Notes under the pieces: model-generated
The model's input: only the letters and a program-made list of their open reading frames with translations
Database searches by the model: none
What the model was told of the DNA's origin: nothing
From: Dysidea avara
Lineage: Eukaryota; Porifera; Demospongiae; Dictyoceratida; Dysideidae
Length of the DNA: 64,000 nt
NCBI RefSeq assembly: GCF_963678975.1
Contig: NC_089281.1
Coordinates: 2,234,437-2,298,436, forward strand
Reading direction: 5' to 3'
Translations under genes and position numbers: made by a program
Part shown: positions 7,162-55,896 of the stretch, piece by piece
Layout: the number at the start of each line of letters is the position of its first letter
Position numbering within the stretch: the stretch's first letter is position 1

Positions 7162-8994
7162 TCAATCCAAAGCTGTACTGCAATCTATTTTTTTTTTAAT
7201 TGTATCACTTTTGAGGTACTGCCAAGTGTTAGTATATGTGGTCAGGTAATCATTGGTGATGAAGTCAGATTTGTACCATACAGCATCCCTATGGTGTTGG
7301 CCATAATGTGACACTGAGTAGTGTTTACTGTTACTAATTTGATTCAACAATTTCACCTTACAGTTGTTTACACCAAGCCTCGATCCCTTTAGGAGAACCA
7401 CTTTCACTGACAGATGAGTATTATAATAGTTAATCTCACCAGCAGGACGAACATTCAGACACAATTGATATCTTCTTTCATATGTGTAAAATGGTTCACT
7501 AAACCAGTTAACATTATTCTTGTATTTCTTGCTATACTCAGTCATTTTCACAATAACTGGTACAATTTCATTACCCGATGACAACTTTGATGACTCTGAA
7601 TATAGTTTATTATTCCACTTGTTGAGACTTTGTGTTACATCATGACTTTGTGTTTCATCATATGAATAATACCCAAACAATGAGTAAATCCATTTTAGAA
7701 TGGAACTTTCCTGCTGAACTACCTCCTTATGAACTACATGTGACTGTTCTTTAGCAAGTAGTGTTGTGTCCCCTTTTCCAGAGTATATGCCAATCTTTTG
7801 ATCACCATTTCTTGGTTGATTGTTGTACATAGATAGTACTTGTGTAATGTTATCAAGTTCTGTTTTAATAGTTGTGATGCTATTCTTGTCACACAATTCT
7901 GCTGGAGTGTTGCTTGCACACATCAGCCAAGCCACCAACACTATTAAAACCGACACAAAACATAACCAGAGTATTTTCTTGTAATAATCAGCATTAGATG
8001 ATTGCCTTCTCAGTTTCTCTGCAGCTAACTTGTTTTCATATTCTAGAAACGTTTTGCTCATTTCTTTTCTAATGTTTTCAATTTTATTATCAATGGCATG
8101 TTGTAGCTGCAGTTTTATAATTGAAAGATTTAAATTCATTGTGTTCATCGCATTCTCTTTAGGTTCATTTGAGGTAGCCAGGTCTTTTTCCATCTGTGAA
8201 AATTTCTCATTTTGTTCTTTGCTAATATCTGATACCCTGGCACCCCAAACTGCTTGAGTGTTATTTACTTCATTCAACAGATACATGGATAATGACAAGT
8301 GCTCTTCCATCTTTGATTTGTTGTGTCTGGTCTGATATTTACGAATTATCCTGTCCTGACAGCCTACCACGTGATACTCACACTGAATTAACTCCATTGG
8401 ACATATTTTCCTGTGTTCTTTTAACTCATTTCTTGGGACACTACCACATCTACACTTGTTGGGACATGGTATCGGGAACTTGGGACACATTTTCTTGTGC
8501 TCACTCTCAATAAACAAATATTGTCCTGTCGTATGGCAATATAAACATTCAGCTTCACGACGCAGACATTTCGTACTGACATGAGCTGTGAGACAACGTC
8601 GCTCTAAAGTGATCCCACAATTATTAGGACAAGAAACTGTTTCCAATTTGCAACCATCACTGTTACCTAGGTGATTGATGATGTCATTCACTTCACCCTG
8701 CCATTCACATCCTTTCCCCTTGTTAGTACAGAACATGTGAAGGCTCCTCACTGCTCGGTCAGCTTGTTTGTTAGCAAAGGCAGAAAACTGTTCACTACGA
8801 CACATGGGACAAACACGAACAGCCATGGCTTGTTGTGCACCCTTAAGACATGATTTACAAAATGTGTGACCACAACACTTACTAAGATAAGGTTCTCTAC
8901 TAGCACAGTGACATATCCTACACACTAGACTATCAGCTGGAGTGTCTAAGAACTGATAAATGTATCCACCCACCTGAGATGCCATTCTAGTCAT
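7162..8994 (-). CDS. RING / TRAF-zinc-finger / transmembrane / MATH-like protein
   Basis: Single-exon gene of 610 residues, probably a ubiquitin ligase-type signalling adaptor. In order: a RING finger at about 25-65 (CRIC, CCGHTFCKSCL, CPMC), TRAF-type zinc fingers at about 89-225 (CTNKGKGCEWQG, CPNNCG, CPNKC repeats), a charged coiled-coil-like stretch at about 255-335, a strongly hydrophobic segment at 341-359 (ILWLCFVSVLIVLVAWLMC), and a MATH/TRAF-C-like domain at about 478-606 (FYTYERRYQLCLNV). Known TRAFs are soluble, with the coiled coil leading straight into the MATH domain. A membrane segment between them is unusual and would place RING and MATH on opposite sides if it really spans a membrane. 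The start at 8994 has a second ATG three codons later. A close paralogue lies at 26615-28423, with decayed pieces at 5260-5600, 24840-25400 and 26295-26500, so this is a local tandem family. Confidence 0.88.
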   Translation of the reverse strand: MTRMASQVGGYIYQFLDTPADSLVCRICHCASREPYLSKCCGHTFCKSCLKGAQQAMAVRVCPMCRSEQFSAFANKQADRAVRSLHMFCTNKGKGCEWQGEVNDIINHLGNSDGCKLETVSCPNNCGITLERRCLTAHVSTKCLRREAECLYCHTTGQYLFIESEHKKMCPKFPIPCPNKCRCGSVPRNELKEHRKICPMELIQCEYHVVGCQDRIIRKYQTRHNKSKMEEHLSLSMYLLNEVNNTQAVWGARVSDISKEQNEKFSQMEKDLATSNEPKENAMNTMNLNLSIIKLQLQHAIDNKIENIRKEMSKTFLEYENKLAAEKLRRQSSNADYYKKILWLCFVSVLIVLVAWLMCASNTPAELCDKNSITTIKTELDNITQVLSMYNNQPRNGDQKIGIYSGKGDTTLLAKEQSHVVHKEVVQQESSILKWIYSLFGYYSYDETQSHDVTQSLNKWNNKLYSESSKLSSGNEIVPVIVKMTEYSKKYKNNVNWFSEPFYTYERRYQLCLNVRPAGEINYYNTHLSVKVVLLKGSRLGVNNCKVKLLNQISNSKHYSVSHYGQHHRDAVWYKSDFITNDYLTTYTNTWQYLKSDTIKKKIDCSTALD

Positions 8995-9140
8995 TAGTGG
9001 GTGTGGTCTTTGTTTTGTTGCCGAAACTAATCACGATGAGTGGCCTGACAGTTTGAATATCTCTCTTGTCTCTTTTGTATGTCGATACGTAGCGAGGTAG
9101 AATCAAGGTAGACTCGCGTACGTCTCCGAGCAGGCGCTTT

Positions 9141-26614: not shown

Positions 26615-28423
26615 TTAGTGTGCATGCAGTTTGCAGTCTACTTGTAAAAATATCATATCATTCTTGAGATATTGCCGAGTAGCAGTAATGATCCGAATAC
26701 TTTTGTCGGTTATAAAATTGGGGTCATACCACATGTAATATTCACTTCTCTCCCTTTTGGTAACCTTTTTAGAAACGTCCATGTCATAAGCAGTAGACCT
26801 TGAATGATGTTCATCGTCACTGATCTGGTTTAACAACTTCACTTCACATTGTCCCTTCAGTGGCCATTTCAATTGATTATCATAAGGACCTTTCATGAGA
26901 TACAGCTGCACTGAAAGTCCACCAGCAGCATTAACATTCAAACACATTTTGTAGCCTTTATTGTGTGTGTAGAATGGAGTACTAAGCCAGTCACTGTTAT
27001 CCTTGTACTTCTTACTGTACTCTGAAATCTTCACAATTACTGGAACAACTTGATCCCCAAATGATAGTTTTGATGCTTTACTGAATAATGTTTGCAACCA
27101 GTACATGTGGTCTTCAGAAGCAGCCAAGAAGCCTCTTAGATCTGTTGTAGTAGTGGCTAAGTCATTTTCTAATTGCAATAGCTTTTGATCATAAAATTTA
27201 GCCAAAACTGCAAGTACAATTGCAATTATAACCATACAGAATATTCCCCATCCATAACTAACAAGTGCTGAAGACTTTTTTATTTGCAACAAACTTTCTT
27301 CATGTTTGCGTTCATTGGTAGCAAGTTCTTGCATTAACTGCTGCTTTGCAGCTGCTAGCTCCTGACTACTATTTAATTCCACAATAGCTACATTGCTTTG
27401 CATGTCAGTAAGTTTATGCATAGCAAAGGCCAAGTGCTCTTCTATTTTCTCTTTGTTGTGTTTTGTTTGGTCCTTACGAACAATCCTCTCCTCGCAACCC
27501 ACCACGTGATACTCACACTGAATTAACTCCAGAGGGCACATCTTCATGTGTTCTTCTACATCACCTCTTAGGACACTACCAACCTCACACTTGTTGGGAC
27601 ATGGTATGGGAACCTTTGGACACTGTTCCTTGTGTTCATCCTCAATAAACTGGTATTCTTCTGTAATGTGGCAGTACTGACAGGCAATCTTACGGCACAC
27701 ACACTCCTCCTCGACATGACTAGTAAGATACTGCTGTTGCATGGTAATTCCACATTCATTAGGGCAAGCAACTTCTTCCAATGGACACACCTCCCTGTGT
27801 TTGTCAATATCCTCACGAGGTATCTCATGGATTTCACATTTGTTGGGGCAGGGTACAGAGAACCTTGGACACTGTTCCTTGTGTTCACCCTCAATAAACT
27901 GATGTTCTCCTGCAATGTGGCAGTACTGACAGTCAACCTTACGACATGCACACTCATTCTCAATATGACTGGTCAGATATTGTCTCTGCAAAAATGTTCC
28001 GCAATCATTAGAACAGGCAACTTTTTCAAATATGCAACCATTGCTGCTCTGAAGGTGATTGATGATGTTGTTCACTTCACCCTGCCACTCACATCCCTTT
28101 TCTTTGTTAGTACAGAACACATGAAGACTCCTCACTGCTCGATCAACTTGTTTGTTGGGCATTGTAGCAAATTTTTCACTACAACTGTGACATACTGGAC
28201 AGGCATGAGAAATGCTGGTAGCTGTGGCCCTATTTTTACCCTCAAGGCAAGACTTACAAAAAGTGTGACCACAACACCCGCTAAGATAAGGTTCTCTACT
28301 GGGAAAGTGACATATTTTACACACCAACATGTCTGAAGGAGTATTCACGAACTGATAGTCATATCCTCCACCCTCATCGCTGGGCGTGGCATCCTCAGTA
28401 GCACCAGTAGGGACTTTTGCCAT
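26615..28423 (-). CDS. RING / duplicated TRAF-zinc-finger / transmembrane / MATH-like protein
   Basis: Single-exon gene of 602 residues, paralogue of 7162-8994. RING at about 35-79 (CKIC, CCGHTFCKSCL, CPVC). TRAF-type zinc fingers cover about 104-320 and include an internal duplication (about 137-216 and 219-300; both contain RKxxCQYCHI and CPNKCE), absent from the paralogue. A coiled-coil-like region covers about 330-385, a hydrophobic segment about 391-410 (GWGIFCMVIIAIVLAVLAKF), and a MATH/TRAF-C-like domain about 459-600 (VPVIVKISEYSKKYKDNSDW). RING ligase activity and signalling adaptor function are inferred from the family, not shown. The membrane segment between coiled coil and MATH is shared with the paralogue although its sequence differs, which suggests it is kept. 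Confidence 0.88.
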   Translation of the reverse strand: MAKVPTGATEDATPSDEGGGYDYQFVNTPSDMLVCKICHFPSREPYLSGCCGHTFCKSCLEGKNRATATSISHACPVCHSCSEKFATMPNKQVDRAVRSLHVFCTNKEKGCEWQGEVNNIINHLQSSNGCIFEKVACSNDCGTFLQRQYLTSHIENECACRKVDCQYCHIAGEHQFIEGEHKEQCPRFSVPCPNKCEIHEIPREDIDKHREVCPLEEVACPNECGITMQQQYLTSHVEEECVCRKIACQYCHITEEYQFIEDEHKEQCPKVPIPCPNKCEVGSVLRGDVEEHMKMCPLELIQCEYHVVGCEERIVRKDQTKHNKEKIEEHLAFAMHKLTDMQSNVAIVELNSSQELAAAKQQLMQELATNERKHEESLLQIKKSSALVSYGWGIFCMVIIAIVLAVLAKFYDQKLLQLENDLATTTTDLRGFLAASEDHMYWLQTLFSKASKLSFGDQVVPVIVKISEYSKKYKDNSDWLSTPFYTHNKGYKMCLNVNAAGGLSVQLYLMKGPYDNQLKWPLKGQCEVKLLNQISDDEHHSRSTAYDMDVSKKVTKRERSEYYMWYDPNFITDKSIRIITATRQYLKNDMIFLQVDCKLHAH

Positions 28424-28653
28424 TGTCTAAGCACTCTAAGGGAGGCAGTGACTGTGACACCTGATAAAAGGCAAAGGAATCACGGTCGCCTCGCACTTGG
28501 GTGGGGGTATTTCCCTGTCGCCCCCACACAAAGGGAGACTAGAGTCACGTGCGCAACAAAGACATGCCTGCAAAGGGGCGTGCGTCATTCATATTGGACT
28601 TGTCAGTCATAATTATGTCAGAGTCATATCGCAGGCCCGTAACCAGGTGGGGT

Positions 28654-46586: not shown

Positions 46587-46658
46587 TTCCCATTCCGGGA
46601 ATTGAACCCGGGCCACCTGGGTGAGAGCCAGGAATCCTAACCACTAGACCAAATGGGA
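46587..46658 (-). tRNA. tRNA-Glu (CTC)
   Basis: 72 bases with full cloverleaf: acceptor TCCCATT/AATGGGA, A box TGGTCTAGTGG, anticodon loop CTCTCAC (anticodon CTC), T arm CCGGGTTCAATTCCCGG. A T7 run follows directly (Pol III terminator). It lies 54 bp upstream of an Artemis exon, same strand. Confidence 0.9.
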
Positions 46659-47974: not shown

Positions 47975-48046
47975 TTCCCATTCCGGGAATCGAACCCGGG
48001 CCACCTGGGTGAAAGCCAGGAATCCTAACCACTAGACCAAATGGGA
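47975..48046 (-). tRNA. tRNA-Glu (TTC)
   Basis: 72 bases, same fold as 46587-46658, with anticodon loop CTTTCAC (anticodon TTC) and canonical T loop TTCGATT. A T7 run lies just downstream. The 5' flank (48047-48085) carries the same GTATAAAATGTTGAGATTTA block. Confidence 0.9.
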
Positions 48047-49174: not shown

Positions 49175-49515
49175 CTTACAAAGCGGTCACCTCTTTAATA
49201 GACCACTTAGTGGTCATCTCTAGAAGATCCAGCAATAATGTAAGACCACCTCATTGCCAAATAGGTCCAAAACATATGTAGCAAAGGCATACTTCACGAC
49301 CTCATTCATGTTATTGAGTCTCAAACACAGCTAAGGTGTAATGGCTAAGGTGTACTTCATGGCCTCATTATAGTGACCATGTCAAATAGGTCCCATACAT
49401 AGCTAAGGTGTACTTCATGACCTCATTAATAAGATCACCTCATTATAGTGACCATGTCAAGTAGGTCCCATACATAGCTAAGGTGTACTTCATGACCTCA
49501 TTAATAAGGCCACCT
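49175..49515. repeat. Tandem ~75-bp units inside a pogo-like repeat
   Basis: 'agctaaggtgtacttcatg' and 'cctcattataagtgaccatgtca'-like words recur about three times in the same order. The outer parts (ggtcacctctttaatag, aataaggccacctcatta) match the family at 60241-60419 and 12397-12500. Confidence 0.6.
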
Positions 49516-50716
49516 CATTAAATGCGAAAAGTGTAAACCTCCATGATCCCTAATATACAGTACTCTAGCCCCAGTTACCTGCATCGTTGGCTGGTTTTGT
49601 ACTGTGATTATCATACAGTACGGGTAGCATACAGTACAACTGTACTGTATATTAGGGATCACGGAGGGTTGGGACCCAAAACAATACCATCCTGCCGCCT
49701 TGTCAGTATTAATTAAGTATAGCCAAGCCCAAAACTGCCTTCAGTACGACCCTAAATGCTTCCAATAGATTGTTAAAATTTTTTTTATTTAATGGATTTT
49801 CTACTGACTAACTGATTCCTTCTTGATAACAGCTATATTGGATGTGTGTGGAAGACCCCTTTTCGCAAATCCGGTCACATTTAATCCCTAACTAAGTCAT
49901 GGGTATAGACTGAACTAGGTATTAGTATATCTGTAGGTGTAGGCAACATCCCTTGTTTCCTTACTGTTTTTCTATGATCCCAGAGACTCATGTGATCACA
50001 GAGACTCATGTGATACCAGTATACAATGGACTTTATCCACAATGACGTCACGTAACAAAATGGCCGCGTTATTTGGGGTAGTTTTGTATTGACACCAATG
50101 GAGAATTCGAATGAATTCGAGTTTTCAGACAGCGTTGAGCAGTGTAACAAACAAGGTACACCTTAAATGATTAGTATTAGTTATAATACAACACTGTGTC
50201 ATGTTTCAGATGGATGCGCAGTTCCCAGTCAGGTTCCCAGCAACCCTTGTGTGTTGCTTAGCCCCGGCGACGGAGATTTTAACCTCGATTTTAACCAAGA
50301 CGTAGATGGTGAAGCAGAGTCCTATTCAGATAGTCATGAATTACTTACGTTAACGGAATTGGATATTCCTGGTGCATCTCTTCATGGTAAAGAGCCAAGC
50401 CAGTTGAATGTTATACAACTGAAGAGGTGGTTGGCTTGTCGCGGAGCACCGGTGAAGGGTAATAAGCCTGAGCTTCTTGAAAGGTAGCAAATCAAATAAA
50501 TGTCATTGTGTATGTAATATTGGTAGTGAATTAGCCAGTGTGCAGCTCAGTAGGGGGAATTGTAAATGTTATGATGAATTCCCTTGGCTCTGTAATATAC
50601 TCTGGAGGCAACTGCAGTTGATGAATCCTACTGCTTGCTGCTCTACTTGGGGCTTACAGTAGTTATAGCTCAATATTTATAGGTGACAGTGATAAAATTA
50701 TATAGTTGTATAGGTA

Positions 50717-50864
50717 CAATGGAACCTGTGACTAAGCCAGTTAACCAAGAATGGATTTGGCCTTAAACACAAATTACAGTATAAATCTCTTACTCACAAA
50801 ATTTGAGGTTTGTCTCATAGCGGGCTGGTATTGTTAGGAAGGTGACTGAAGACAGGTTCCACTG
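50717..50864. mobile_element. pogo-like MITE in intron 2 of the transposon's fusion gene
   Basis: CAATGGAACCTGTGACTAAG at the left and the inverse of CAGTGGAACCTGTCTTCAG at the right, flanked by TA (50715-50716, 50865-50866). An element within an element, so it is younger than the host copy's lineage. Confidence 0.65.
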
Positions 50865-53056
50865 TAATGGTATATTTATAAGCTTATTTTTATGCTGTGT
50901 AATGTGTTTGAAGGGTGATTTGTTACATTAAACATGGATGGGATCAGTACTTGGTAGATTCAGATAGAGGTGAAAATTGCCACAAGAAACTAGCCTCAGT
51001 AGCATCTAGAGAACCAGAGTCATTATCTTTTCGATTACATCAATCTATACCACCAGCTAGTGATCAACAATGGACCAGCCAGTTGCACAAGTTACCAAAA
51101 GTATCATACAGTACAATCTATGGCTTTTTGGTAGATCGAAAAGTGCTTCTTAGGAAAGTTGGCTATTTAGAAGATATTGTTGATAAGAATACTGGCATGG
51201 ATGAGAGTAATGATGAAATTGAGGATTCTGAGAAGCGTAAAGAGTATGATGCGTACGAGCCTATTGAATATACCAGAATATTTAACAAAGGGTATCGTTT
51301 CTTCAGAGATGGCCATGTTCAAGAAGTTAGATATCACCCGATGCCACATGAAGTAAATTATGTGTGTATAAGGTCAAGTGTTCTACCATCTATGAGAAAG
51401 GACCGGGTTTACACTACAAAAATTGTCCTCTGTGAATCCACTGCAAGTGTTGCAAGTGCTTATTGTACTTGTACTGCTGGTCTCTCCGGATGCTGCAATC
51501 ATGTAACAACAACTTTGTACTTTCTGGAGGGGTACATTCATGCAGGTCTATGTGAAGATGAGCTGATAGGATGCACAGATCGGTTGCAAACATGGATTAA
51601 ACCAAGAAAGCAAAATGTGGAAGCTCGTCCAACTGATGAGGTTGTATTAAACAAGATGGAGTATGGAATTGAAAAAAGACCAAAACTTTACCGCATAAAT
51701 TCATGGGACTGTTGTCCTGTATCAAGGAGAATTATTGATCCCAACAGAGCTAGGAATCTCAGGGAACGTTTATCTTTGCTTGAGCAGTGTAAAGTCGAAG
51801 CTGCTGACAAAGCTCTCCTTTGTGCCAGGAGTGAGACTGAAAAGAAGAAAGCAATGAAAACAAGATCACTACTTAATCAATATGGAACTTCCTGTTTCCT
51901 ACAGCTGCTGGATGAAGAGGCTCCTAGTACTGAAAATCGAGTGGAGAGAATGAGGACAGAAAGGCTGAAAAAGGCGACAGCACAGAAGAAGAAATTGCTT
52001 GACGATTTATCTGCTTTGCAGAAATTACTTCAACTTGACCATCCGTACAGCTGTCCCACTGCTCTGAGTGACAGGTGTAATGATTCAACTATTGAAATGC
52101 CTATGGATATGCAGCAGGATTTAGTAAATAGGCTGTACAGAAATCATGTTTGTCTGAGCCCACAAGCTTGTGTACAAGTTGAAGCCAAGACACAAGCACA
52201 ATCACAAACTTGGCATCACGAAAGAAAGTTATGAATTACTGCTTCTATAATGAAAGAAGTTTGCCACTGAAAGTCATCTACCAGCTGTGAGGCTTTCATT
52301 CGAAAGAAACTAGGGTCAAAGTCGATCAATACACCTGCAGTTCGTTATGGACAACATAATGAAACAATTGCAGTAAGATCATATGTGAACTACCAAAACA
52401 AACGTGGTATAATGATTCAGGTAAATTCCTGTGGCCTTTCGATTGACCTGTCAACACCTTGGTTGGCTGCAAGTCCAGATGTAATTGTAGTTGATCCTAC
52501 ACAGAAGCATCCTAAGAGAGGATGTCTGGAAGTAAAGTGCCCCCTTTCGTGTGAAAAGATGTTGTTTGCAGCTGCCTGTAAGAATATTTCCGGGTTTTGT
52601 CTTGTGCAGAAAAATGGTGAATTGTCTCTGTCAAGAACACATGCATATTACTACCAAGTACAGACTCAAATGCATGTCACACACATCTCATGGTGTGATT
52701 TTGTAGTGTGGTCGCCGATGGAAGATGTGTTTGTTGAACGTGTGTACTACGATCCTGCCTTTATGACAACAGCAATGTCGAAAGCTCAAGAATTTTATTT
52801 TAAGAAATTTTTGCCATCAGTGGTACCATACATAGTGATAACTGGTGACACTGAACAGAAATCCGCTACTTGTATCATCTCACCCGTCACAACAGTGACA
52901 AGTGCAGTCCCACCAGCTACAGCATCACAGAATATGGTACCAACAGCTACAGATGTGAAGACAATCCTACCAGCCACAGCAGTAAAGAACACAGCACCAC
53001 TATCCACAGCAGTACAGAGTCCAACCACAGCAGCAAAGAACACCATACCAATCCAA

Positions 53057-53296
53057 CCAGCCACAGCAGTAAAGAACTCCTTACTACCAGCCACATCAGT
53101 GAAGAAGACAATTCCACCAGCCACAGCAGTAAAGAACTCCTTACCACCAGCCACACCAGTGAAGAAGACAATCCCACCAGCCACAGCAGTAAAGAACTCC
53201 TTACCACCAGCCACACCAGTGAAGAAGACAATCCCACCAGCCACAGCAGTAAAGAACTCCTTACCACCAGCCACACCAGTGAAGAAGACAATCCCA
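53057..53296 (+). repeat. Four 60-bp tandem repeats in coding sequence
   Basis: The period is exactly 60 bp and keeps the frame. Each unit encodes two related decapeptides (PPATAVKNSL, PPATPVKKTI). It links the nuclease to the OTU domain. A degenerate 30-bp form starts at about 52900. Confidence 0.9.
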
Positions 53297-53948
53297 CCAG
53301 TTACAGTGAAAAATACAATTTCAGCAGACTTCAAAATCACTTCTGTTACAAAGAGACATTCACCAACTCTGAATAGTGTTTTGCAACACATGCGTGTCAG
53401 AAAACATTCAGTAAGTGGGGATGGTAGTTGTATGTACCATGCTGTAGCTCATCAAGCAGGCCTTATCCCTAAAGACAGTAGGGGTGACAACATCATCAGT
53501 ACTCTTTTAAGACAGACGGCTTTGAGAATGATGACAGATCACCCTGCTGTTCGTTTAGAAGATGGCTTATCTCCAATACAGTGGCTGCAAAAGAAACAGA
53601 CAATCCTTGACCCTGCTGAATGGGGTGGTGATTTGGAATTGCGGTTATTGGCCATTGGTCTGAAAAGAGATATTGTGGTACTAACTGCCGTACATGATGG
53701 CTCTACTTATGCACGCCAATTTCCTTGCCAAGCACCTCCAATTCCCAAGATGAGAGGAGGAATTTTTATCCCGCTATCTTCTAATGAACTTTGTGGTCAG
53801 TGGACATCACTAGATGCCACTCCATTACTAGTAATATACAACGGACATAGCCATTATGATTCAATGTGTAAGTAATTTCATTTATAAATAACACTGTGTG
53901 TACATTCAATCATTCAATTGTGTAAACAATAGTTATGTAATCAATCAT

Positions 53949-55547
53949 TCAGCAAACTAATGGGGGGCTAAGATTTGTTAACATGCAGCAAACATATATT
54001 ACTTCATTAAGTGAGTCCCACATAGCACTGGGAATAACACCTTGCAATATTCTATATTCCTTGACTCGTCCAATAGCTCTCTCCACATGTACTCTTAACT
54101 GAGCTATTTTCTTTGTAACGACAACATCTTTCATTGGCATTTGCTGCTTTGAGCACACAAGTGGAGGCACATTTAATCTTACACCCAGTGGCGCAAGAAG
54201 GTCCTGAATCAAAAAGCCTTTGTCTGCCATTAACTCATCTCCCGGCTCTAGCATTTGTAGGAGCCCACTAAGCTCAACTAATTTCCGATCAGATATTGAT
54301 CCTTCATAACTCTGAAACACAAATGATATGGCTCCGCTTGGTGTAATTCCAATCAGAACTTTAACAGTGTTTCTGTTTTTATAATTGGAAAATGTGCAGG
54401 CCTGATTTAGAAGCGATGAAGGTCGTTCTATAAAAAACTCGGTGGCATCTATTATAACTCTAGTATCTGGATACAGCTTTTTGAAAACTTCTGGCATATA
54501 TTTATTAACAACACTCCATGATGGAAATCGTTCAATAGCTTTAAAATTGTGGTAAAGCAAATTTATCCAAGTCATTGTAATGCGCGACACAGTTGATTGT
54601 GAAACACCAAATCGATTTGCCAAATCTAACTCTGGAAATGCCATACGCAGTCGCACTATTGTCATAAACAACTGCTCTAACAAAGGAAGCTTTTGAGATC
54701 GCCCACATTTTATTTCGTCAAAATCATCTTTCGAATTCTTTCCTTTCCAAATTCTAATTACTTCTGCATCCCCCTTCAAGATTTCTTCATAAAAAATTAT
54801 TAAAGTTGCATAGTCTGGGATGCCTGTATACAACTTCACTAGCTCATCATTGTTTTTGATATTTTCCAAGCGAAATAGTTGCTTTTCTGATTCATTTTTA
54901 GCTTGGTACAATTCATTTTCCAACTCCCTAATCCTTAACTCCAATGCATGTACTTTGCTTTCCAAAGCTTGGAGTTCACTTGATTGTGAGTCCATTGTGT
55001 CATCCAATCCATCATTTGGCAATAGTTCATGATTGAAGTCACATCGCTGCTGAGATGAAATAGCTACCACTGATGTCCTACTCTTACGCTGAAAAACCTG
55101 ACCTGTCCAGGGAAAGACTGATGGGACAGCTGTTGGCCTGAGGCGGGGCTTGCTTGATGGAAGTTGATACTCACTGTGTGTGTAATCATCAGGTTTGAAA
55201 TGCAGTGAACAAATTTTAGTATTTATGTTTATTTTGAAGTTTACACCAGGATCCCTTCTTATCTTTACAATCCAATCCTTTGCTCTGGCTGTCTTCAAGT
55301 CAGGGAAACTATGAAATGAAAGCGTTGGCATTCCCAATCTTCTCCGTTCAGACTGGTCCCCTGAGGAACTACGACACAGTGGGACACAACAATAATGTCC
55401 TTTCCACGCCTTCATTGCTGCAGTTACATGCACTTTCTTACGGAGGGGCACCGAAGAATCGCCACTACCTGATCGCGAGTTATCCTCAGACTGGGAGCTC
55501 GACTGAAAGGCATCATCGTCAAAATTCTCGTCAAAATCAGCCTGCAT
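53949..55547 (-). CDS. THAP-domain DDE transposase (DDE_Tnp_4 type)
   Basis: One open frame of 532 residues. THAP zinc finger at about 52-150 (CCVPLC, DWIVKIRRD, CSLHF, then AVPSVFPW), the DNA-binding part that recognises the element's ends. A coiled coil follows at about 190-230 (ELQALESKVHALELRIRELE), then a helix-turn-helix region (LANRFGVSQSTVSRIT). The DDE core is IIDATEF (first Asp), MADKGF (second Asp) and HVERAIGRVK (Glu), with the usual spacing. It acts in the nucleus, cutting and rejoining the TIRs at 50028 and 55743. It is convergent with 50098-53875, separated by 73 bp. No frame break, so this gene may still be active although its partner is not. Confidence 0.92.
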   Translation of the reverse strand: MQADFDENFDDDAFQSSSQSEDNSRSGSGDSSVPLRKKVHVTAAMKAWKGHYCCVPLCRSSSGDQSERRRLGMPTLSFHSFPDLKTARAKDWIVKIRRDPGVNFKININTKICSLHFKPDDYTHSEYQLPSSKPRLRPTAVPSVFPWTGQVFQRKSRTSVVAISSQQRCDFNHELLPNDGLDDTMDSQSSELQALESKVHALELRIRELENELYQAKNESEKQLFRLENIKNNDELVKLYTGIPDYATLIIFYEEILKGDAEVIRIWKGKNSKDDFDEIKCGRSQKLPLLEQLFMTIVRLRMAFPELDLANRFGVSQSTVSRITMTWINLLYHNFKAIERFPSWSVVNKYMPEVFKKLYPDTRVIIDATEFFIERPSSLLNQACTFSNYKNRNTVKVLIGITPSGAISFVFQSYEGSISDRKLVELSGLLQMLEPGDELMADKGFLIQDLLAPLGVRLNVPPLVCSKQQMPMKDVVVTKKIAQLRVHVERAIGRVKEYRILQGVIPSAMWDSLNEVIYVCCMLTNLSPPLVC

Positions 55548-55824
55548 GTCTGTTACCTGGCACTCAATCCCTCTGTGATAACGATAGTTAGCTTACTTAC
55601 CATTATCACCGCATCTGATAGCCTTACCTTCGTGTCTTAACTGCTCAACGCTCGAATTTGCTCAAACTCTCGTTAGCGCCAATACAAAACTACCCCAAAT
55701 AATGCGGCCATTTTGTTATGTGACATCATTGTGGATAAAGTCCATTAAAACAAGCAGTGTGCAATACATGTCCAATCTCCTCTCACATTTACACAGCCTG
55801 TAAAAGCAAAATAAAAATAAAAAG

Positions 55825-55896
55825 TTCCCATTCCAGGAATTGAACCCAGGCCACCTGGGTGAAAACCAGGAATCCTAACCACTAGACCAAATGGGA
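55825..55896 (-). pseudogene. tRNA-Glu (TTC)-like unit, probably decayed
   Basis: Anticodon loop TTTTCAC (anticodon TTC) and intact acceptor stem, but the T stem is CTGGG/CCTGG, with two G-T pairs where the other copies have CCGGG/CCCGG. Loss of both CpGs suggests decay. The same 5' flank with TATAAAA stands at 55897-55935 and a T5 run is downstream. Confidence 0.65.

Follow-up and report, generated by a model that had tools for sequence, protein, structure and literature searches.

A partly decayed ISL2EU-group DNA transposon in Dysidea avara with a predicted OTU cysteine protease domain at the C-terminus of its YqaJ-type accessory nuclease

A DNA transposon was located at positions 50028-55743 of the window, the whole 64,000-nucleotide stretch of the Dysidea avara genome that was analysed (C10:2234437-2298436). 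Judged by its ends, its target duplication and its domain content, it is almost certainly an autonomous cut-and-paste element of the ISL2EU group (PHIS superfamily), partly decayed. Beside its transposase the element carries an accessory gene in which a YqaJ (lambda-exonuclease type) domain is followed by an OTU cysteine protease domain, and the same fusion was found in an uninterrupted frame elsewhere in the genome. The explanation that we consider likely as a whole is a decayed ISL2EU-group element whose accessory nuclease gained a C-terminal OTU domain that would work in transposition or repair.

Structure of the transposon

The genome searched comprised 550.8 Mb in 108 contigs. Feature coordinates within the window are collected in Table 1. 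As extended by the search tool, the inverted repeats (50025-50098 and 55673-55746) were 92% complementary, and GGACTTTATCC, with its GG start, opened the repeat at both ends of the element. The left ends of two other copies, C3 and C7, deviated from the GG start (TG and GA, respectively). AT flanked both sides of the C3 copy, of the C7 copy and of seven of nine short copies; the two short copies lacking AT have common flanks, as if one were a duplicate of the other. A search for an empty site with the joined flanks returned 22 matches, none uninterrupted: two were the flanks in the window itself, and the other 20 were short hits to one flank.

The transposase matched the Pfam families THAP (E = 1e-16), HTH_Tnp_4 (4.4e-16) and DDE_Tnp_4 (6.4e-44), and it is arranged tail-to-tail with the accessory gene on the opposite strand. 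In the available text of PMC4482050 and PMC9179366, ISL2EU elements are described with a THAP-HTH-DDE transposase, a YqaJ second gene, an AT duplication (A|AT|T being the preferred target) and GG ends; the window element resembles them in all four respects. A sequence-only reading of this DNA had named SWIM and YqaJ beside a THAP-DDE transposase as a known pairing, and the combination of YqaJ with THAP-DDE is the published ISL2EU layout (PMC4482050, available text).

Short non-autonomous copies of 346-378 bp (e.g. L089-L097) carry the same inverted repeats and are likely MITEs mobilised by the transposon family of the window. At C9:21085145-21093540 two inward-facing inverted-repeat matches, 93-95% identical to those of the window, lie about 8.4 kb apart, perhaps as a further complete copy or as a nested insertion. 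The octamer TGACGTCA, which we take to be CRE-like, was seen in inverted repeats close upstream of genes in the window (50043), L069 (6213), L070 (614 and 5864) and L071 (1896), with one-base variants close to the opposite ends of L069 and L071; a search of L073-L076 found none. The whole window holds three exact matches against about one expected (64000/4^8). A built-in promoter is possible.

Elsewhere in the window, two similar long open frames on the minus strand (7162-9030 and 26615-28426) encode a TRAF zinc finger and MATH, with RING below cut-off. Three tRNA-Glu genes or tRNA-like repeats were found on the minus strand (46587-46658, 47975-48046 and 55824-55896), the last starting 81 bases past the right end of the element. 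To its left, at 49363-49520, a 75-bp unit is repeated 2.1 times in tandem with 96% matches.

Table 1. Features of the transposon and its two genes, in window coordinates
Feature	Position	Strand	Basis
Left AT target-site duplication	50026..50027	.	Sequence; target reads A/AT/T
Left terminal inverted repeat, starts GGACTTTATCC	50028..50098	+	Inverted-repeat search
Exon 1, ATG to splice donor	50098..50155	+	Phase-consistent splice model, predicted
Exon 2, with SAP domain (Pfam match 50398-50484, final base beyond donor)	50210..50483	+	Pfam SAP, 5.4e-7
Exon 3: SWIM-like motif, YqaJ, repeat linker, OTU	50914..53875	+	Pfam, splice model
SWIM-like zinc-binding motif C-x-C...C-x-H	51464..51502	+	Motif
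In-frame TGA stop, codon 551	52232..52234	+	Reading frame
Second in-frame TGA stop, codon 563	52268..52270	+	Reading frame
YqaJ (lambda-exonuclease type) domain, Pfam-matched part	52319..52684	+	Pfam, 2.5e-11
YqaJ-OTU linker, repeat-coded, 30 and 60 bp units in frame	52969..53300	+	Tandem-repeat search
OTU cysteine protease domain; Cys codon 53429-53431, His codon 53852-53854	53384..53872	+	Pfam, 2.8e-7
Transposase open frame, 547 aa: THAP + HTH_Tnp_4 + DDE_Tnp_4	53949..55592	-	Pfam
Right terminal inverted repeat	55673..55743	-	Inverted-repeat search
Right AT target-site duplication	55744..55745	.	Sequence

Accessory gene of the window copy

Spliced as in the three-exon model, the frame stays in phase through 1098 codons, the final one being the stop. 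The SAP, YqaJ and OTU matches each lie above the curated Pfam cut-off in plus-strand frames. The sequence-only reading had placed SAP, SWIM, YqaJ and OTU in one chain; the model and the three profile matches agree with this, but two in-frame TGA codons between SWIM and YqaJ break the window copy, which is therefore unable to encode the whole chain. An intron spanning both codons was considered and rejected, as the frame continues through them and relatives are open there. The C3 copy, 99% identical to that of the window, is open at both TGA sites but frameshifted before OTU. The donor GT closing the SAP exon was present in all eight elements examined and the acceptor AG opening the next exon in all six in which it was located, near copies being included in both counts; by this comparison the splice that joins the SAP exon to the remainder is conserved among elements.

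The SWIM zinc finger of the same reading holds at the level of the motif, without a significant profile match. Of 20 loci examined, 12 showed the C-x-C...C-x-H motif; the remaining eight begin downstream of that region. The SWIM profile gave no match in the window (Pfam, E up to 1 in a first search and up to 10 in two later ones), and the sole Pfam match of the window's motif fragment was to another family, below cut-off. SWIM was matched below cut-off in one of five proteins covering the motif (L074, E = 0.0069) and in two of six motif fragments (L070, E = 0.011; L002, E = 0.087), with no match in L071, L072 or L075.

YqaJ-OTU fusion in relatives of the same genome

A DNA search of the genome with a 1605-base YqaJ-OTU query gave at least 50 matches among the best 40 of 70 candidates, and a protein search with the OTU domain, in which all 135 candidates were scored, gave 122 matches at 98 loci. 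Thirty-seven places with an OTU match were fetched, 30 by way of the protein search and 7 more by way of the DNA search. At 18 of these, the window included, YqaJ and OTU were nearly whole and shared a single stop-free frame; these places make up 19 alignment rows, L052 and L071 being one place. The remaining 19 were broken, partial or cut by the end of the stretch. One relative, L070, has a stop-free frame of 1099 aa with SAP (Pfam 4.6e-8), the SWIM motif, YqaJ (1e-16) and OTU (2.4e-8), and thus all four parts; between SAP and SWIM, this frame seems to run through an intron that is open by chance.

The stops in the window copy would fit an OTU domain encoded by its own, adjacent gene, or an OTU frame that is open by chance. 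Against this stand the uninterrupted YqaJ-OTU frames at 18 places and the 1099-aa frame, by which a chance frame was rejected and a separate gene is refuted as far as sequence reaches; we regard either as very improbable. On the same evidence the YqaJ-OTU fusion is taken to be real, as the sequence-only reading had it.

Between the two domains the linker measured 43-184 residues across the 19 open rows. Such variability, together with the repeat coding of the linker in the window, might be expected if OTU were a protease acting on a polyprotein, cleaving within the long linker so as to release the nuclease from the C-terminal portion. The linkers have no common length, however, and the relatives that lack OTU have no such linker; moreover, OTU enzymes hydrolyse ubiquitin and ubiquitin-like conjugates. 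A polyprotein protease is in our judgement improbable.

The arrangement with the transposase was also followed. An OTU match lay tail-to-tail, 56-440 bp away, in 66 of 78 transposase loci, which derive from 85 matches among the 79 candidates scored out of 1047, those nearest the transposase of the window. The 12 other loci were 38-42% (nine), 59% (two) and 64% (one) identical to the window's transposase; the last abuts an OTU fragment, and the two at 59% had no OTU match within 8 kb. Conversely, 30 of the 98 OTU loci had no transposase match within 8 kb among the scored candidates. Loci with only one of the two may reflect decay or loss, candidates left unscored, or a link that is looser.

Conservation, selection and predicted fold

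The OTU profile match of the window had been named as a check on the first reading, as had the catalytic Cys/His pair; both were found. Residues Asp13, Gly14, Cys16 and His157 of OTU (DGxC plus His) were invariant in 19 of 19 open rows from the 18 places. In YqaJ, the PD...ExK and Q-x-Q residues P69, D70, E87, K89, Q129 and Q131 were likewise invariant in all 19. The open-row set excludes broken copies and therefore leans toward conserved copies.

Under a codon model fitted to 17 distinct rows, omega was 0.134 (OTU) and 0.127 (YqaJ). Fixing omega at 1, while kappa was kept close to its freely estimated value, lowered lnL by 286 (OTU) and 289 (YqaJ). By this model the OTU domain of open copies is under purifying selection as strong as that on YqaJ. 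Simple pairwise dN/dS, a weaker measure because few pairs were usable, gave medians of 0.33 for OTU (8 of 171 pairs) and 0.20 for YqaJ (16 of 171). For the linker the median was about 1.1 (25 of 171 pairs), its between-family values depending on a poor alignment.

The best AlphaFold2 model of the OTU domain, built from a 16-row alignment, had a pLDDT of 85.5. Foldseek with VIA-align matched it to the OTU domains of Crimean-Congo and other nairoviruses, to a Wolbachia OTU and to OTUD1 and OTUD3. A sequence search of the PDB with the domain also returned OTU enzymes (best E 5e-5), with DGxC and His aligned to those of the Crimean-Congo virus OTU. The fold is thus shared with the nairovirus enzymes and OTUD1/OTUD3, whereas identity is 14-21% and the domain context differs.

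Taken from sequence and model, the OTU domain of the open copies is probably enzymatically active. By its title, one paper reports a loss of activity among OTU family members, and a dead or non-catalytic ubiquitin-binding module could be proposed on that precedent; the invariance of Cys, His and the DGxC Asp in all 19 rows and the omega of 0.134 speak against it, and we hold it to be slightly less probable still than the linker-cutting protease.

Origin of the OTU domain

In trees of the transposase core and of YqaJ alike, all OTU rows fell on one side of a single branch, with support of 100/100 for the transposase core (18 rows with OTU, 8 without) and 100/99 for YqaJ (24 with, 10 without). 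Entry to the trees was limited to best matches without stops, of at least 200 residues for the transposase or at least 150 for YqaJ, others being dropped; the trees are in effect unrooted, with some long branches and few rows lacking OTU. Four of the eight such rows in the transposase tree are near copies (L002-L005), and one C14 place may be counted twice in the YqaJ set. The label 'no OTU' refers to the fetched stretches, which extend 1.5 kb per side for L001-L008. The simplest reading of these trees is that OTU was gained once and that the lineage then multiplied in the genome.

Five of the nine transposase loci at 38-42% identity (L072-L076) were fetched, and the tail-to-tail layout was kept in them. 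All five had a SAP match, short in L075, and the SWIM motif. A stop-free YqaJ entered the tree for L072, L073, L074 and L076; L075, whose open frame stops inside YqaJ, was left out. In L072, L073 and L074 the frame terminates 51-60 residues past the Pfam YqaJ match. Two more distant YqaJ loci have a PHD-like finger at the C-terminus, in the place of OTU (L001:1111-2253, PF00628, E = 3.9e-4; L002:859-2394, PF23011, E = 2.2e-3), both matches being below the Pfam cut-offs. With these fingers in view, the accessory protein seems to have an interchangeable C-terminus.

A profile of the transposon OTU domains matched 12 other sampled OTU loci of the genome weakly in all cases (best 14.7 bits). When prokaryote genomes were scanned with the OTU alignment, a single distant relative came up (L100), from a Legionellaceae MAG and with 27% identity. 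On viral contigs, 59 stretches fitted a search pattern and none was confirmed. The genome also holds other multi-copy OTU families, with repeated frames of 176 aa and 240 aa, and long OTU frames of 1613-2078 aa that may belong to other transposons.

Comparison with known systems

Unlike published ISL2EU elements, the window element has a second protein that terminates in OTU. OTU occurs zero times in the main texts of PMC4482050, PMC9179366, PMC12730594 and PMC9587614 on ISL2EU; SWIM occurs zero times in the first two and SAP zero times in PMC9179366, as far as the available main texts go. No paper joining YqaJ with 'OTU domain' was found in the literature searched, which was mostly open access and lay apart from the Repbase reports, and among the titles and abstract openings listed by the other searches none was recognised as describing OTU in ISL2EU. 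This agrees with the sequence-only reading, to which the fusion was unfamiliar. Within that literature OTU in ISL2EU is apparently new; priority is not proven.

A C-terminal OTU (or Ulp1) domain is carried by Ginger1, for which a role in repair during transposition, by removal of ubiquitin from host proteins of repair or silencing, has been proposed (PMC2836005, available text). The window element is similar in having a DNA transposon protein that ends in OTU; in Ginger1, however, OTU sits on a Gypsy-integrase-like transposase, and here on the accessory nuclease of an unrelated transposon. Membership in Ginger1 was rejected, the transposase being THAP + HTH_Tnp_4 + DDE_Tnp_4 with no Gypsy-type integrase. 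Helentrons carry OTU or VTD deubiquitinases (PMC4067079, PMC9741609, available text) and so are likewise transposons encoding a deubiquitinase-like enzyme. They are rolling-circle elements with Rep/helicase, whereas the window element has a THAP-DDE transposase and YqaJ; membership was rejected on the DDE_Tnp_4 transposase and inverted repeats found instead of a Rep/helicase with endonuclease. KolobokE shares with it a lambda-exonuclease-like PD-(D/E)XK nuclease but belongs to another superfamily and has its nuclease downstream of its transposase (PMC9587614, available text).

Proposed function and significance

The accessory protein is plausibly a transposition or repair nuclease with an added deubiquitinase, whose activity and substrate we infer from sequence. 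ISL2EU-family transposases cut and paste at AT, and YqaJ-type enzymes resect 5' strands. In the mechanism that we propose, the THAP-DDE transposase would excise the element at AT, and the SAP and SWIM-like parts of the accessory protein would keep it on DNA. The YqaJ domain would resect 5' strands at the donor break or at the element ends, and OTU, tethered by the variable linker, would free proteins at the site of ubiquitin or a ubiquitin-like modifier, the candidate substrates being the transposase, histones or repair factors. This could prolong the complex or steer repair so that the element is kept. OTU might benefit the element through a transposase that lasts longer, a different choice of repair pathway or reduced silencing.

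That OTU acts at the site of transposition or repair rather than elsewhere is, in our estimation, slightly less likely than not. The sequence-only reading had suggested removal of ubiquitin from host repair or silencing proteins, which is plausible. Alternatively, OTU may protect the element's own transposase and accessory protein from proteasomal degradation and have no role in repair or chromatin. OTU shares a chain with YqaJ and an element with the transposase, and for the VTD deubiquitinase of Helitrons, which is unrelated, such a role has been put forward (PMC9741609, available text). Yet a shared chain that includes a nuclease and DNA-binding parts agrees at least equally well with action close to the DNA, and we think simple protection possible but rather unlikely. 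Carrying local action further, the C-terminus of ISL2EU accessory nucleases could be a place for modules that deal with the host, either left empty or occupied by a PHD-like finger or by an OTU deubiquitinase. The protein of the OTU branch would then be an active deubiquitinase and exonuclease anchored to DNA; by altering ubiquitin marks at the transposon's own DNA break it would tilt repair toward retention or copying of the element, and acquisition of OTU would have accompanied the spread of the branch. This extended scheme is offered as a speculation, and in full it is doubtful.

The element adds a further kind of DNA transposon with OTU beside Ginger1 and Helentrons, here with OTU fused to a DNA-end nuclease. 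With many open copies in one genome, activity, substrate and effect on transposition can be tested, the relatives lacking OTU serving as a natural control. Unrelated transposons have repeatedly gained ubiquitin hydrolases, which suggests that transposition is limited by the control that ubiquitin exerts over repair, protein stability or silencing.
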